Positions 5,825 through 48,919 of a stretch of DNA of 54,659 nucleotides are shown piece after piece. The first letter of the stretch is position 1. Each line of letters opens with the position of its first letter. Origin of the DNA: a virus; the IMG/VR virus record IMGVR_UViG_3300025913_000045, positions 1 through 54,659 of that record; one strand, written 5' to 3'. Position numbers and translations under genes: made by a program. The notes beneath the pieces were generated by a model. The model did no database searches. It had not been told where the DNA came from and worked only from the letters and a program-made list of their open reading frames with translations.

Positions 5825-6464
5825 TAGCAAAGTCCGTTTCTGTACCGGTGAAAACATCCCCGTCCATATCAGTACCATTCCAATTATAAGTATTCTGCCA
5901 AAACAAAGGCGGCTTTCCAGTATCAAACCTAACAGGACAAGTTTTTTGCAGCGATGACAACCACATAGGATTATCAGGAAATTTTGCACCGTGAAAATAT
6001 TCTTTTGGGTAATTATTGTAGGTATATATTAAACAATCCCGGCCTGTTACCCGTTTTACTTCGTTTAAAAAGTCATGTAGCCGCGATAAGGCCAGTTTCC
6101 AATTATCAGCAACCCATTTGTTTTGCGCGGCGGTATCAGCTTCATTATGGCCTACTAAATCCTCCACATCGACACATGGCATCATACACCCCGGCGAGTT
6201 GAAATTAACGCCTAATGATAGGTAATTTTTAGCCTGGATTAAACCGTCAACACGGGGCTGAAAGAAATGATAAACTCCGCGTGCTAATCCATGAATTAAT
6301 TTCGCTTCCTGCCATGCATCGTTAAACGTTGCATCTTTATACGCATCGGCTTGCGTTCCCTTAAACCAAATAAAGCGTATACCTTTAGGGATTAATGAGG
6401 CTAATGGTATTTTGCTATTGAGGTGACTCCGGTCAACGCCTTTAATATAATTCATACGGTGCAT
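5802..6464 (-). CDS. GH25 endolysin (lysozyme), 220 aa
   Basis: A glycoside hydrolase family 25 muramidase that should cut peptidoglycan at lysis. Residues 8-14 (KGVDRSH) contain Asp11; WFKGTQ..AYKD follows at 33-43; GVYHFF at 63-68; the catalytic pair lies in VDVED (Asp99, Glu101). No signal peptide is visible, so export needs a holin or pinholin. A second start (MNYIKG) 9 nt downstream is possible. Two tiny membrane ORFs precede it with overlapping codons, making a compact lysis cassette. Confidence 0.92.
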   Translation of the reverse strand: MHRMNYIKGVDRSHLNSKIPLASLIPKGIRFIWFKGTQADAYKDATFNDAWQEAKLIHGLARGVYHFFQPRVDGLIQAKNYLSLGVNFNSPGCMMPCVDVEDLVGHNEADTAAQNKWVADNWKLALSRLHDFLNEVKRVTGRDCLIYTYNNYPKEYFHGAKFPDNPMWLSSLQKTCPVRFDTGKPPLFWQNTYNWNGTDMDGDVFTGTETDFAKINNAAV

Positions 6465-6555
6465 TTAAAGCCACTAAGATAGCAAGAATTGAGATAACAA
6501 CCGCAATAGCCGTGTAAATTCGGGTGCGGAGTTTGTATGAGGCGATGCTATGCAT
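6442..6555 (-). CDS. Single-TM lysis-cassette peptide, 37 aa
   Basis: MHSIASYKLRTR, then a hydrophobic helix (AIAVVISILAILVAL, residues 16-30). The ATG at 6555 overlaps the stop of the preceding 25-aa ORF (TAATG), and the stop lies inside the start of the endolysin gene. This points to translational coupling in the order small TM peptide, small TM peptide, endolysin. Possible pinholin or spanin-like component; unproven. Confidence 0.5.
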   Translation of the reverse strand: MHSIASYKLRTRIYTAIAVVISILAILVALNAPYELY

Positions 6556-6632
6556 TAGTCCACCCGTTTGGTAAACACCATTGCGGTCATGACAGCAATT
6601 GAGAAAAGCATTAAACAGATGAAGTAGATCAT
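6555..6632 (-). CDS. Tiny membrane peptide, 25 aa
   Basis: MIYFICLMLFSIAVMTAMVF followed by TKRVD: one transmembrane helix with a short charged tail. The stop overlaps the next ATG in TAATG. It is the first ORF of the lysis cassette. Size, position and overlap support it, but there is no homology evidence. Confidence 0.45.
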   Translation of the reverse strand: MIYFICLMLFSIAVMTAMVFTKRVD

Positions 6633-6692
6633 ACCGCAATTTACAAAACTATTGGGAAATAAAAAAGCCCCTGTTGTTGAGAGGATAAAAAG

Positions 6693-6881
6693 TTATATTT
6701 CGGCGTAAAGTTGAATATTATTTAAATCGCCACCTGTCATATATTGACTATACTTATCTTCCCATTCCTCATAATTGTCGTCGTTATACCCATCTAAGTC
6801 GGAGTTAAACTCATCTTTCATTTCGAAAGGTATCACATACCAGTGGCCGCTTTCGTCTTGTGTTACATATACTTTTTTCAT
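6693..6881 (-). CDS. Small acidic phage protein, 62 aa
   Basis: The start KKVYVTQDESGHWYVIP and the end MTGGDLNNIQLYAEI match a small acidic protein type common in Bacteroidota phages, of unknown function. Very acidic middle (DLDGYNDDNYEEWEDKY). Its leader contains TTAACCCCC, shared with several other genes. Confidence 0.7.
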   Translation of the reverse strand: MKKVYVTQDESGHWYVIPFEMKDEFNSDLDGYNDDNYEEWEDKYSQYMTGGDLNNIQLYAEI

Positions 6882-6889
6882 ATCTCTTT

Positions 6890-7051
6890 TTATTTGCTTG
6901 TTAAATGGGGGTTAACAACTGTGTATTGCGTTTTTACATGGCCCTTGCCGCCGCAATTCATACATGTTAAAAACCCATAGCCATATACAGTCTTTTTGCC
7001 TGTTCCGCCGCAACATGGACATTCGGCGCTTTCATATAGTATTGTTAGCAT
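6890..7051 (-). CDS. DnaJ-like zinc-finger protein, 53 aa
   Basis: Contains two CxxCxGxG-type motifs, CPCCGGTG (residues 11-18) and CMNCGGKG (30-37), which together would bind one zinc as in the DnaJ central domain. No J domain or other part is present, so it is a free-standing zinc finger that could bind RNA or a protein partner. The ATG at 7051 has an A/G-rich leader. It lies between two short minus-strand genes of the lysis-side unit. Confidence 0.7.
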   Translation of the reverse strand: MLTILYESAECPCCGGTGKKTVYGYGFLTCMNCGGKGHVKTQYTVVNPHLTSK

Positions 7052-7062
7052 CTTTTCTTTGT

Positions 7063-7365
7063 TTAAGTGGTGGGGGTTAAAATGATTTTGTGTAACTCGT
7101 CTTTGGCAGATTGTAATTTGCGCATTACCACGTCAATTGAATTTTCATTATCAAAAACCATTATCATATCCGGAAATGTTTCATCGGTTGTTTGTCCTTT
7201 TAATAAATCACCACCTGAACCAATTTCGCGAGGCGGTTGATTTTTGAAAACTACGGCTACGTGTCCCGCTTTGTTTGCGCCCCATGTGACAGCTATATCA
7301 CCCTTGCCAAACTCTAAAAGTGTTGGTATAATAACTTTTCCGTATTTAATGTTGCTTAATATCAT
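7063..7365 (-). CDS. Hypothetical protein, 100 aa
   Basis: First gene of the minus-strand unit that runs toward the endolysin. Beta-rich, with AVTWGANKAGHVAVVF (residues 24-39), then a helical C-terminus. No family recognised. A perfect Bacteroidota-type promoter lies directly upstream. Confidence 0.65.
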   Translation of the reverse strand: MILSNIKYGKVIIPTLLEFGKGDIAVTWGANKAGHVAVVFKNQPPREIGSGGDLLKGQTTDETFPDMIMVFDNENSIDVVMRKLQSAKDELHKIILTPTT

Positions 7366-7382
7366 TCTCTCTTTCTTTTCCC

Positions 7383-7414
7383 CAAAGGTATATTAATTGG
7401 GGGATAGTTGCAAA
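7383..7414 (-). promoter_or_regulatory. Promoter for the 7365-to-5802 unit
   Basis: On the minus strand TTTG (7414-7411), 20 nt, then TACCTTTG (7390-7383). This is a full match to the Bacteroidota -33/-7 consensus. It is divergent from, and does not overlap, the promoter at 7422-7451. Confidence 0.75.
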
Positions 7415-25623: not shown

Positions 25624-25662
25624 AATAAAAAAAGCAACAAATACCTCGCGTACCCGTTGCTT
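25624..25662 (-). terminator. Terminator upstream of the tape measure
   Basis: AAAGCAAC (25630-25637) and GTTGCTTT (25655-25662) form an 8-bp stem; on the minus strand it is followed by TTTTTATT. Second of two terminators after the tRNA cluster, so the tape measure probably has its own promoter, not identified. Confidence 0.75.
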
Positions 25663-25710
25663 TACCAGATTGATAAGAAAATGTGATTTGTATGGTGTAA
25701 AGGTAATAAA

Positions 25711-25746
25711 AAAACCGCAAAATCAAATTAATGATTGTTGCGGTTA
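25711..25746 (-). terminator. Terminator after the tRNA cluster
   Basis: AACCGCAA (25713-25720) and TTGCGGTT (25738-25745) form a stem; on the minus strand it is followed by a T-run. It ends the tRNA transcription unit. Confidence 0.75.
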
Positions 25747-25752
25747 AAAAGC

Positions 25753-25833
25753 GGTAGATATAGGATTCGAACCCTGCGCTTTCACGCCGCGCCTGTTTTC
25801 AAGACAGGATGCCCACCATAGGACGCTATCTAC
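25753..25833 (-). tRNA. tRNA-Ser (anticodon UGA)
   Basis: Acceptor stem GTAGATA/TATCTAC (25827-25833 with 25754-25760), anticodon arm CCTGT-CTTGAAA-ACAGG (anticodon TGA), a long class II variable arm, and T-loop GTTCGAATC. CCA is not encoded. Reads UCA (and UCG/UCU by wobble). Last tRNA of the cluster. Confidence 0.93.
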
Positions 25834-25839
25834 CAATTG

Positions 25840-25922
25840 CAGAAGTTGTGAGATTCGAACTCACGATACCCGAAAGTATTACAGATTAGCAGTCTGCTGC
25901 CGTACCACTTGGCTAAACTTCT
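25840..25922 (-). tRNA. tRNA-Ser (anticodon GCU)
   Basis: Acceptor AGAAGTT/AACTTCT (25916-25922 with 25841-25847), discriminator G, anticodon arm GCAGA-CTGCTAA-TCTGT (GCT), and a long variable arm with an ATAC/GTAT stem. Reads AGU and AGC. Confidence 0.93.
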
Positions 25923-25925
25923 AAG

Positions 25926-25998
25926 TACTCCCACCGGGATTCGAACCCGGACACTTGGATTTTAAGTCCAATACGACTACCGATTACGTCATGGGAGC
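25926..25998 (-). tRNA. tRNA-Leu (anticodon UAA) with a short variable loop
   Basis: Acceptor GCTCCCA/TGGGAGT with a G-U first pair, discriminator A, D-arm ACGTAATCGGTAGTCGT as in bacterial tRNA-Leu, anticodon arm TTGGA-CTTAAAA-TCCAA (TAA), then only GTGT before the T-stem CCGGG. Bacterial tRNA-Leu normally has a long variable arm, so the 4-nt variable loop is unusual. Reads UUA and UUG. Confidence 0.88.
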
Positions 25999-26002
25999 AG
26001 TG

Positions 26003-26075
26003 TACCCCTAATCAGATTCGAACTGATACACCCGGTGCCTAAAACCGGTGCGACTGCCAATTACGCCATAGGGGC
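26003..26075 (-). tRNA. tRNA-Leu (anticodon UAG) with a short variable loop
   Basis: Acceptor GCCCCTA/TAGGGGT (G-U first pair), discriminator A, D-arm GCGTAATTGGCAGTCGC, anticodon arm CCGGT-TTTAGGC-ACCGG (TAG, G37), variable loop GTGT, T-arm ATCAG/CTGAT. Paralogous to the neighbouring tRNA-Leu(UAA) and likewise lacking the long variable arm. Reads CUA and probably other CUN codons. First tRNA after the attenuator-like terminator. Confidence 0.88.
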
Positions 26076-26078
26076 AAT

Positions 26079-26112
26079 AAAAAAGCCTCTCGAAATTAAT
26101 CTAAGAGGCTTT
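26079..26112 (-). terminator. Terminator/attenuator before the tRNA operon
   Basis: AAAGCCTCT (26082-26090) and AGAGGCTTT (26104-26112) form a perfect 9-bp stem; on the minus strand the stem runs directly into TTTTTT at 26084-26079, and the first tRNA starts at 26075. It lies between the leader ORF and the tRNAs, so it fits a transcription attenuator. The 3' arm GAGAGGCTT can also pair with AAGTCTCTC inside the leader ORF. Confidence 0.8.
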
Positions 26113-26134
26113 GAATGTTTTAAAATTATATTTT

Positions 26135-26209
26135 TTAACCCATATAAGTCCCCTTATCGTTTCGTAACGAACTCAATAATGAGAGACTTGATAGATTTTT
26201 GTTTTTCAT
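26135..26209 (-). CDS. Leader peptide rich in Leu/Ser codons, 24 aa
   Basis: MKNKN, then LSSLSLLSSL (residues 6-15), then RNDKGTYMG. The ten-residue run uses CTA TCA AGT CTC TCA TTA TTG AGT TCG TTA. Nine of these ten codons are read by the four tRNAs encoded downstream (UAG: CUA; UGA: UCA, UCG; GCU: AGU; UAA: UUA, UUG); CUC is the tenth. It lies between a perfect promoter and a terminator, as leader peptides of amino-acid operons do. Translation is inferred, not seen. Leader region 26113-26134 and 26210-26293 holds no other ORF of note. Confidence 0.65.
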   Translation of the reverse strand: MKNKNLSSLSLLSSLRNDKGTYMG

Positions 26210-26293
26210 AATTTTAACAAAACGGGTAACAAACATCAAGTGATATTTTTCAATCCAAACGAAGTAACACTTAATTACGACACCGTTTCACTG

Positions 26294-26325
26294 CAAATAT
26301 ACATTACTATATAATAATATACAAA
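26294..26325 (-). promoter_or_regulatory. Promoter of the leader-tRNA unit
   Basis: On the minus strand TTTG (26325-26322), 20 nt, TATATTTG (26301-26294): a perfect match to the Bacteroidota consensus. Transcription should start near 26288, about 80 nt before the leader ATG. It overlaps the end of the tail-chaperone extension (stop at 26327). Confidence 0.78.
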
Positions 26326-26326
26326 A

Positions 26327-26653
26327 TTATTTTCCTCTCGGTATCATCGCCGCCCGTTCCATAGCCAATTTCATTAAGTTTTCTTTCTCTTCTGGAGAAA
26401 TCACTAAAGTTTCGGGGGGCGGGTCGGTAACTAATGGCAATAATTGAGCAGGTGTTTTTCGTTCTGTAGATGTATTGTTAACCAAGTATAACCACCATGC
26501 AATATACCGCGTATGCTCCCATTGATGGGCAGAACGTTTGATGTGACCTGTTATAATGCAGGAATATTCATACCATGTTAAGCAATAAAATTCATGTGCT
26601 GATAAACCGAGTTCGCCGGTTGCAAACTCTATGACGCTACGGAATGTGTCTTC
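26327..26653 (-). CDS. Tail assembly chaperone T-extension made by -1 frameshift, 108 codons
   Basis: This stretch has no start codon of its own. It continues the gene at 26629-27024 after a -1 shift in A9 (26662-26654): EDTFRSVIEFATGELGLSAHEF ... WWLYLVNN ... RGK. The ratio (131-residue short form, about 230-residue long form) and the frame shift copy the lambda G/GT arrangement. The long form should chaperone the tape measure during tail assembly, as gpGT does. Confidence 0.8.
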   Translation of the reverse strand, partial: EDTFRSVIEFATGELGLSAHEFYCLTWYEYSCIITGHIKRSAHQWEHTRYIAWWLYLVNNTSTERKTPAQLLPLVTDPPPETLVISPEEKENLMKLAMERAAMIPRGK

Positions 26654-27024
26654 TTTTTTTTTACGGGTTGTTCTACCTCTTTAACAGCTTGCGCCTCTAA
26701 AAATTCAGTTATGCCTGTAACCTTTTTGAAGTTTTCCCAAATTGGGGTAAAGTCATCCATGTTGCATATCGCTAATTCGGATGCAACTTGTTGGATAGTA
26801 ATTGTGGGTTTTAAAATGAATTGTGAACACTCGTAACCACGGAAACCTGAAAATAGCAATGCAGCCATTCCGGATAGCAGGTTTTCGCCTGCCAAGTTAA
26901 TTAACTCAACATGGGCGTTAATTGGGTCACATTGTAATATGTTACCCAATTCTATCAGCGCGTAATTATTGAAATGAAATATCCTGTCTTGTCCGGCGAA
27001 TTTTATCGAAATAGCGTCAACCAT
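26629..27024 (-). CDS. Tail assembly chaperone, short form (gpG-like), 131 aa
   Basis: Lies between the tail-tube and the tape-measure regions, the standard place for tail chaperones. Contains a FNNYALIELGNIL helix and ends in a Lys-rich tract (VKKKKTHSVAS) encoded by the slippery A9 run. Zero-frame codons read gta aaa aaa aag aag, so A AAA AAG is present in frame. Most ribosomes should end at 26629 and a fraction shift to make the longer product. A spacer of 3 nt separates it from the tail-tube gene. Confidence 0.85.
   Translation of the reverse strand: MVDAISIKFAGQDRIFHFNNYALIELGNILQCDPINAHVELINLAGENLLSGMAALLFSGFRGYECSQFILKPTITIQQVASELAICNMDDFTPIWENFKKVTGITEFLEAQAVKEVEQPVKKKKTHSVAS
26653..26662 (-). 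promoter_or_regulatory. Programmed -1 frameshift site (A9 slippery run)
   Basis: Minus-strand AAAAAAAAAG with zero-frame aaA AAA AAG, the most efficient slippery heptamer in bacteria. After the shift, reading resumes gaa gac aca (EDT), an open frame of 108 codons. Confidence 0.78.
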
Positions 27025-47965: not shown

Positions 47966-48919
47966 TTATAATAATGATGTGTTAAAAATTTCGCCTTTAC
48001 CATTCCAGAATATCTTTTCGATGATTTTCTTTTTATTGTTAGTTGCGGATAAACTGGAGCGGTGCGTAAAGGCGTATACTTGCTGAAACGGAGCGTCGTA
48101 TTCGCTGATATAAACCGGGTAAGTGCAGGCTGCAGCCCAGTCGTAAAAAGCATCATGGTTAAACCCACGCTCCTTATACTCCCCTGTTCCTTTATATGGA
48201 ATATCGCAATATATCACAGGATTGTTACCGGTAATTATTACATTTTCATAGCTTTTATTCGTAATTTGCAGGTTTTGCAGGTTTTGCAGGTTTTGCAGGT
48301 TTTGCAGGTTTTGCAGTCTGGCTAATGATTCAATAAAGACCAAACTTTCTAAGTTCTGCATATCAAAACGAGATTTTGTCAGTTTTTCAATATAATCGCA
48401 AAAAACAGTTCTACGCTTTTGAATGCCTTTAATATCAAACAAATTAGGTATTTCGATATTTAATTTTGCCATCGATTCAGCGCAGCAATTTACAACAACC
48501 TCGTGTCCTAATCGCTTTATCTCTTCAATATCAGCCCCATAAATATACGACGACTGTTTATTCCCAAAACTCCAGCAACTCATAACAAAACCGCTATACC
48601 AGTCAGCATCAGTACGCGAACATTGTTTAAAAAACTCTTCACGTGTTACCCATTCAAAGAATTTAGGCTCCAGTTCCTTATGTGTTTTGAGATATTCAAC
48701 TAAATGGTATATGTGGCTGTTTAGTTCGTTATAGTGTACAGTCATATTATCGCCGCAGTTTGCAATGGCGGTAAAAGATACACTACCACCGCCGCCAAAT
48801 AAATCATAAAAATCTGTTAAATCAGGATGTCGCCTGGTAATGAACTGAAGTATATCAATGGCGAGTTTGCGCTTGCTTCCCATATATGGAATACCCAAGC
48901 CTTCGGTTAACTCACCCAT
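47966..48919 (-). CDS. DNA adenine methyltransferase (Dam/D12 class), 317 aa
   Basis: Motif I DLFGGGGSVS (39-48), N-terminal GIPYMGSKRKLAIDIL as in D12 enzymes, and motif IV CDIPY (about 238-242, DPPY to DIPY). The middle holds a tandem LQNLQN tract (48268-48316) that lies in the region where the target-recognition domain would be. It methylates adenine, probably for protection against restriction; the recognition site cannot be read from sequence. Its end overlaps nothing; the start overlaps the clamp gene by 13 nt. Confidence 0.85.
   Translation of the reverse strand: MGELTEGLGIPYMGSKRKLAIDILQFITRRHPDLTDFYDLFGGGGSVSFTAIANCGDNMTVHYNELNSHIYHLVEYLKTHKELEPKFFEWVTREEFFKQCSRTDADWYSGFVMSCWSFGNKQSSYIYGADIEEIKRLGHEVVVNCCAESMAKLNIEIPNLFDIKGIQKRRTVFCDYIEKLTKSRFDMQNLESLVFIESLARLQNLQNLQNLQNLQNLQITNKSYENVIITGNNPVIYCDIPYKGTGEYKERGFNHDAFYDWAAACTYPVYISEYDAPFQQVYAFTHRSSLSATNNKKKIIEKIFWNGKGEIFNTSLL
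48268..48316 (-). repeat. 9-bp tandem repeat (5.4 copies) in the adenine methyltransferase gene
   Basis: Unit GCAGGTTTT on the plus strand, five complete copies at 48268-48312 plus GCAG. In the protein it encodes the LQN run. A 9-bp unit keeps the frame, so copy-number change would vary the tract length without knocking out the gene. Confidence 0.9.

Follow-up and report, generated by a model that had tools for sequence, protein, structure and literature searches.

A putative leader-peptide attenuator ahead of a phage tRNA operon, and similar leaders in other phage tRNA operons

Attenuation of amino-acid operons is known from the trp, his, leu, ilv, thr and phe leaders. T-box riboswitches sense tRNA charging as well and control termination. 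Phage tRNA genes are thought to restore tRNAs that are depleted in infection, and two papers on such genes deal with tRNA identity and escape from nucleases (PMC10264068, PMC11555353). The searched text of PMC10264068 contains no mention of attenuation, leader peptide or operon.

Here we analyzed a virus record of 54.7 kb (IMGVR_UViG_3300025913_000045; the whole stretch of 54,659 nt is called the window). It comes from a tailed phage; Flavobacterium phage 11b and other phages of Bacteroidota have similar portal and tape measure proteins (about 30% identity). A cassette on the minus strand, with the tail assembly chaperone on one side and the tape measure gene on the other, consists in this order of a promoter, a 24-codon ORF, a terminator, tRNA-Leu(UAG), tRNA-Leu(UAA), tRNA-Ser(GCU) and a probable tRNA-Ser(UGA) (Table 1). 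The cassette is best explained as a ribosome-mediated transcription attenuator, which would make the phage tRNA operon respond to a shortage of the charged tRNAs that it encodes. We put the probability of this reading at about 0.88. The anatomy, the alternative pairings, the match between codons and tRNAs and the preference of leaders for their own over swapped pairing partners are computed results. A first-pass annotation of this DNA had made the same core claim of a peptide attenuator on a phage tRNA operon, and both the folding of the window leader and the comparative set speak for it. All features of an attenuator that can be tested on sequence were found: control codons clustered between promoter and first gene, control codons that match the product of the operon, an intrinsic terminator, exclusive 1:2, 2:3 and 3:4 pairings, and a predicted exposure of segment 2 by a stalled but not by a passing ribosome (window, a set of 40 leaders and Cellulophaga phage phi4:1).

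Table 1. Features of the window cassette and examples of leaders in other sequences (coordinates as given for the window)
Sequence	Feature	Position	Strand	Basis or remark
Window	Bacteroidota-type promoter TTTG-N20-TATATTTG (TTTG 26325-26322, TATATTTG 26301-26294)	26294..26325	-	consensus match only
Window	Leader ORF MKNKNLSSLSLLSSLRNDKGTYMG with stop (ATG 26209, stop ends 26135; second in-frame ATG at 26236)	26135..26209	-	24 aa; Leu/Ser run unique in window
Window	Control codons 6-15, CTA TCA AGT CTC TCA TTA TTG AGT TCG TTA (Leu/Ser)	26165..26194	-	folding
Window	Protector hairpin (segments 1:2)	26137..26197	-	folding, -17.3 kcal/mol
Window	Segment 2 (UAAGGGGACUU) in codons 18-22, strand of the antiterminator	26146..26156	-	pairs with terminator 5' arm, -13.2 kcal/mol (predicted)
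Window	Segment 3, terminator 5' arm, common to antiterminator and terminator	26102..26111	-	folding
Window	Intrinsic terminator (segments 3:4) ahead of first tRNA, T-run 26084-26079	26079..26112	-	predicted, -14.4 kcal/mol
Window	tRNA-Leu(UAG), short variable arm	26002..26075	-	ARAGORN
Window	tRNA-Leu(UAA), short variable arm	25925..25998	-	ARAGORN
Window	tRNA-Ser(GCU)	25839..25922	-	ARAGORN
Window	Probable tRNA-Ser(UGA), odd fold	25753..25834	-	Rfam tRNA-Sec model, 32.2 bits, sub-threshold
Window	Terminator-like hairpin AACCGCAA...TTGCGGTT with T-run, 3' of tRNAs	25705..25743	-	read from sequence
L125	Leader MKNLSNNIMIQQQQQITV (QQQQQ) ahead of Gln, Gln, Gln
L193	Leader ..NQPQPQDQD.. ahead of Gln, Asp, Pro
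L196	Leader MKTFNDIFAFNFAAFAAEEDD.. ahead of Phe, Glu, Asp, Ala
L190	Leader MRTIINIEAIGYAYEAG.. ahead of Tyr, Glu, Ile, Gly, Ala
L174	Leader MKNLVNIQPVPQQHPQMPEW.. ahead of Pro, His, Gln
L189	Leader ..SSSRSSR.. ahead of Arg, Ser, Ser, Ser, Ser
L337	Leader KQVKQIRKQQ ahead of Gln, Lys, Arg, Gln			similar to L383
L457	Leader SDSSSSSDSD ahead of Asp, Ser, Ser, Ser			dedicated scan; similar to L383
L319	Leader IELPSLSLQRFYS ahead of Ser, Ser, Tyr, Pro, Glu, Leu, His
phi4:1	Leader 1 MKIQRLHLQELEQP.. ahead of Pro, Glu, Gln, His, Leu, Leu, Arg
phi4:1	Leader 2 VQLTKTGITVIDKTKGARAY.. ahead of Ala, Lys, Ile, Gly, Met, Asp, Thr, Val, Arg, Met			GTG start, within annotated gp075
phi4:1	Leader 3 MKTNYCTYNNSNWSFSY.. 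ahead of Tyr, Ser, Asn, Trp, Phe and more tRNA-like elements

The short ORF with the sequence LSSLSLLSSL and the intrinsic terminator with its T-run, both reported in the first-pass annotation, were found again. With all six frames of the window considered, LSSLSLLSSL is the sole Leu/Ser run of at least 8 residues, and not one of 10 residues arose in 60 Markov simulations of the window. The ten-residue run is not due to chance. The count of nine out of ten run codons read by the phage's own tRNAs, which had been put forward as a match, adds little, because 82% of the Leu/Ser codons of this phage are already read by the four tRNAs. The promoter had been called perfect and is present. By itself it is weak evidence, because the pattern TTTG-N18-21-TANNTTTG has 6 matches in the window and 2.8 are expected by chance.

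Among the four tRNAs named before, the two Leu tRNAs and tRNA-Ser(GCU) were identified by ARAGORN, which misses the fourth. The gathering cut-off of Rfam for the tRNA-Sec match of this candidate is 47 bits, above its score. It has the anticodon loop CTTGAAA, in which UGA is legible by eye, and is probably, but not certainly, a tRNA-Ser(UGA). Another Ser(UGA)-like tRNA of unusual fold, also missed by ARAGORN, lies at 4594-4690 of L331, which derives from the phi4:1 record NC_021788. In phi4:1 such an element appears to underlie the gene annotated as gp076, possibly a false ORF. The two Leu tRNAs of the window measure 74 nt each and have the short variable arm of type I, which ordinary Leu tRNAs of bacteria do not, and several Leu tRNAs of contig L033 are likewise short.

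The window leader is predicted to fold as a four-segment attenuator, in which the pairings 1:2, 2:3 and 3:4 are mutually exclusive. Segment 1 (AAGTCTCTC) holds the control codons and sequesters segment 2 (AAGGGGACTT) in codons 18-22. In the protector hairpin the control codons are paired with codons 17-25, and equal or better stability was reached in 8 of 2000 dinucleotide shuffles. Without a ribosome, the free leader adopts 1:2 together with 3:4 (z -4.0). Folding with and without ribosome blocking, as proposed in the first-pass annotation, yielded an antiterminator upon stalling. With the A site on codons 6-14, segment 1 is masked and the 2:3 pairing reaches -12 to -16 kcal/mol, computed for the transcript only up to the terminator 5' arm. 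The antiterminator is weakened to -6.7 kcal/mol by a stall at codon 15 and is lost at codon 16 (-3.2 kcal/mol), which coincides with the end of the Leu/Ser run. Among 2000 dinucleotide shuffles, 2 had both an antiterminator and a protector as good as these; among 2000 synonymous shuffles, which leave the peptide unchanged, there were none. A Leu/Ser stall would therefore lead to readthrough, since segment 2 pairs with the terminator 5' arm once segment 1 is masked. The equilibrium fold of the window favours the terminator even with a stalled ribosome. Because the terminator is more stable at equilibrium, the antiterminator must win by forming first, that is, kinetically. Switching in the known attenuators is likewise assumed to be kinetic. 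The logic of the switch, which had been left unsettled, is resolved by these predictions as stalling that turns the tRNAs on, by a route other than the one suggested before. The pairing of AAGTCTCTC with the terminator, noted in the first-pass annotation, is possible on paper and absent from the predicted folds. We rejected the pairing of AAGTCTCTC with the terminator 3' arm; 1:2 and 2:3 account for the data better.

Leader translation, stalling, termination, their kinetics and the physiological trigger we infer from the sequence as follows. RNA polymerase would start at the promoter, and a ribosome would translate the leader. If charged Leu- and Ser-tRNA is plentiful, the ribosome would clear the control codons and cover or release segment 2, the 3:4 terminator would form and transcription would end ahead of the tRNAs. 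A ribosome stalled in the Leu/Ser run would mask segment 1, so that segment 2 could pair with segment 3. Once 2:3 has formed, the terminator would come too late and the tRNAs would be made. Rising tRNA levels would then restore termination, giving homeostasis. Many other phage tRNA operons carry the same predicted device, with control codons rewritten for each tRNA set. The trigger may be starvation, the codon load imposed by late genes or the cutting of tRNAs by host defence (PMC10264068, PMC11555353).

For comparison, we searched for similar arrangements in other sequences. Loci sharing a Leu-tRNA motif gave the first further case, with five Leu tRNAs, a terminator and the leader MKNYNNIMNLVLLLNLLLCNKL... 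(L033, L056). Viral contigs were scanned for a promoter, a T-run and a tRNA T-loop at this spacing, with peptide content ignored. In total, 106 tRNA operons with promoter, short ORF, terminator and tRNAs were found, most of them in these peptide-blind scans, and 78 remain once near-identical leaders are removed. Many leaders have a common N-terminus such as MKNLxNI. A scan with a different promoter motif gave 24 more leader-like ORFs, which match their own tRNAs at 0.41 vs. 0.21 (0/5000). One of these phage loci, on a 201 kb contig (L383), has a TTGACA/TATAAT promoter, a Shine-Dalgarno sequence and the leader MVFNALLSLSLLSSWSNQLR before tRNA-Ser(GCU) and tRNA-Leu(UAA). Judged by its sequence, its LLSLSLLSS stretch is an independent Leu/Ser leader with a sigma-70 promoter. 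A strict filter for Shine-Dalgarno sequence and sigma-70 promoter retained only 4 leaders (p 0.04), which is a small number for strong statistics. The device is not universal, because the tRNA clusters of the cultured crAss-like phages crAss001 and DAC15 lack such leaders. No comparable leader was seen at the tRNA clusters of Klebsiella phage Pylas and Vibrio phage SBP1. In the stretches retrieved from bacterial genomes, at least 3 of 102 clusters of tRNA genes had a similar arrangement. These cases filed as bacterial (L319, L325 and L218) are short MAG contigs with a similar leader-tRNA layout and are possibly misbinned phage.

The amino acids of the leaders follow the tRNAs of their operons. 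Among 50 non-redundant leaders (similarity ≤0.55), a fraction of 0.444 of residues 8-20 corresponds to tRNAs of the same operon, compared with 0.161 after permutation of the sets (0/20000), and 97% of the encoded tRNA types are present in the own leader (49% for comparison). The nearest relative of the window found, contig L001, lacks the cassette. All amino acids but Met are 2.4-18.6 times commoner in leaders of operons with a matching tRNA. In operons with only one isoacceptor box, the leader codons follow that box for Arg (p 0.017), Ile (p 0.001) and Leu (p 0.056); the pooled figure combines different amino acids and is given no weight here.

The pairings also appear to be specific. For 67 divergent leaders, pairing between the second ORF half and the terminator 5' arm averages -10.46 kcal/mol when the arm is the leader's own and -6.49 kcal/mol when arms are swapped (0/20000); the window leader's own arm ranks 17th of 67. 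The first and second ORF halves pair at -15.69 kcal/mol (own) vs. -11.64 kcal/mol (swapped; 0/20000). As a control, the first half showed no preference for its own terminator arms in the same 67 leaders. The preference for own over swapped partners reads as covariation of exactly the pairings required by the model. In 40 leaders, the end of the control block differs from the last permissive stall codon by a median of 0 codons, and it lies within 2 codons of it in 77.5% of cases vs. 40% after permutation. Over 75 leaders, the arm pairing under stall exceeds that of shuffles (Wilcoxon p 1e-10), with only 17% of the leaders beating their shuffles one by one.

These comparisons bear on other explanations of the cassette. 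The stall might be set by a nascent arrest peptide or a small molecule instead of codons and tRNA supply, and the common N-terminus might make contact with the exit tunnel. Conserved residues would be expected of an arrest peptide, which is therefore disfavoured: the control residues vary freely and yet match the own tRNAs, and the codon box follows the isoacceptor. We consider this very unlikely. Even less likely is a moron-like unit, in which a short ORF with its own promoter and terminator would encode an unrelated small peptide and the tRNAs would be coincidental neighbours. The layout of promoter, ORF and terminator is typical of morons, and L001 has other small ORFs at the site between chaperone and tape measure gene. 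However, leader composition goes with the tRNAs that follow in dozens of operons, and leader RNAs prefer the terminator arm of their own operon as partner; neither is predicted by a free-standing peptide gene. Instead of an autonomous ORF unrelated to the downstream genes, we thus find an ORF whose content and pairing depend on the operon.

The leader might also be untranslated, with the hairpins acting as an RNA element (riboswitch-like, a processing site or an antitermination site) and the ORF being incidental. The alternative hairpins are strong, and no clear Shine-Dalgarno sequence precedes the window leader, whose translation is therefore not readable from the sequence. The in-frame match of amino acids to the tRNA set, the position of the control codons, which fits the ribosome-masking window, and the Shine-Dalgarno sequences ahead of leaders in other phages (e.g., L383) argue against this, and we regard it as the least likely of these explanations.

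A cultured example of the attenuator is probably present in Cellulophaga phage phi4:1 (L185, NC_021788). The tRNA cluster of this phage is divided into three successive operons, all of which have a leader and a terminator of their own; the predicted terminators lie near 87186, 88160 and 89919 of NC_021788. In computed masking, all three modules lose the antiterminator close to where the control block ends. The promoter stretch of module 1 recurs unchanged in module 2 (TTTGTTTTATCCAATTATTTGTTGTATGTTTGCCAA; L331; NC_021788 87020-88030), which suggests that the module may have been duplicated and its codons then rewritten. A broader reading is tentative and, in our view, somewhat doubtful: phages of different host phyla, with Bacteroidota-type and sigma-70-type promoters, would carry multiplexed and codon-resolved sensors of tRNA shortage, sometimes in series, which act as counter-defence so that the missing tRNAs are made. 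Anticodon nucleases or infection would deplete tRNAs, ribosomes would stall on the matching leader and those tRNAs would be produced.

The site of the cassette was also compared. L001 is the nearest relative found, at 84% for a tail protein; when viral contigs were searched with the tape measure protein, no relative came up. At the same site, L001 carries several small unrelated ORFs and zero tRNAs (6170-7400). By its gene content, the interval that separates the tail chaperone from the tape measure gene appears to be a cargo site. The tail assembly chaperone pair of the window (26327-27024, minus strand) resembles a programmed -1 frameshift at an A-run (CCCGTAAAAAAAAAGAAG), and the same A-run and overlap recur in L001 at about 5826. 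Two more terminator-like hairpins with T-runs follow in succession at 25631-25743 (minus strand), upstream of the tape measure gene, and a possible promoter lies ahead of the start of this gene. The structural operon seems to be split among several transcripts. Elsewhere in the window (47966-48919, minus strand), a DNA methylase-like protein with a tandem LQN repeat (LQNLQNLQNLQNLQNLQ) is encoded.

If true, a supply sensor would add a new layer to phage tRNAs that counter tRNA-depleting defences. A leader that lists its tRNAs would be the phage's own record of the shortages that matter, and the alternative of codon compensation or anti-defence becomes testable as the question of when the operons fire. 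The sequence signature can be used to annotate hidden regulatory ORFs, as in gp075 of phi4:1, which contains one, and the leaders may serve as ready-made multi-amino-acid sensors of tRNA charging.

To our knowledge, a peptide attenuator on a phage tRNA operon has not been described, and no published description was found in the open-access literature searched, in agreement with the first-pass annotation. As a mechanism, ribosome-mediated transcription attenuation is of a known kind. Like the attenuators of the amino-acid operons, the phage leaders combine a promoter, a short ORF, clustered control codons and protector, antiterminator and terminator pairings, and would be on when starved. T-box riboswitches bind the tRNA directly and without translation, whereas the phage leader would use a reading frame; in a scan of the region, no T-box family was among the Rfam matches up to E 1, and the leader is not classed as a T-box. 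In contrast to the amino-acid attenuators, the leaders described here are phage-borne and their targets are tRNA genes, not biosynthetic enzymes. They often list many amino acids (up to about 10), their codon boxes follow the isoacceptors, and the end product is the sensed molecule. Viral tRNA operons as target, many-amino-acid leaders and a closed loop in which the product is sensed are new, and widen the reach of peptide attenuation, known from amino-acid operons, to include viruses and tRNA genes.
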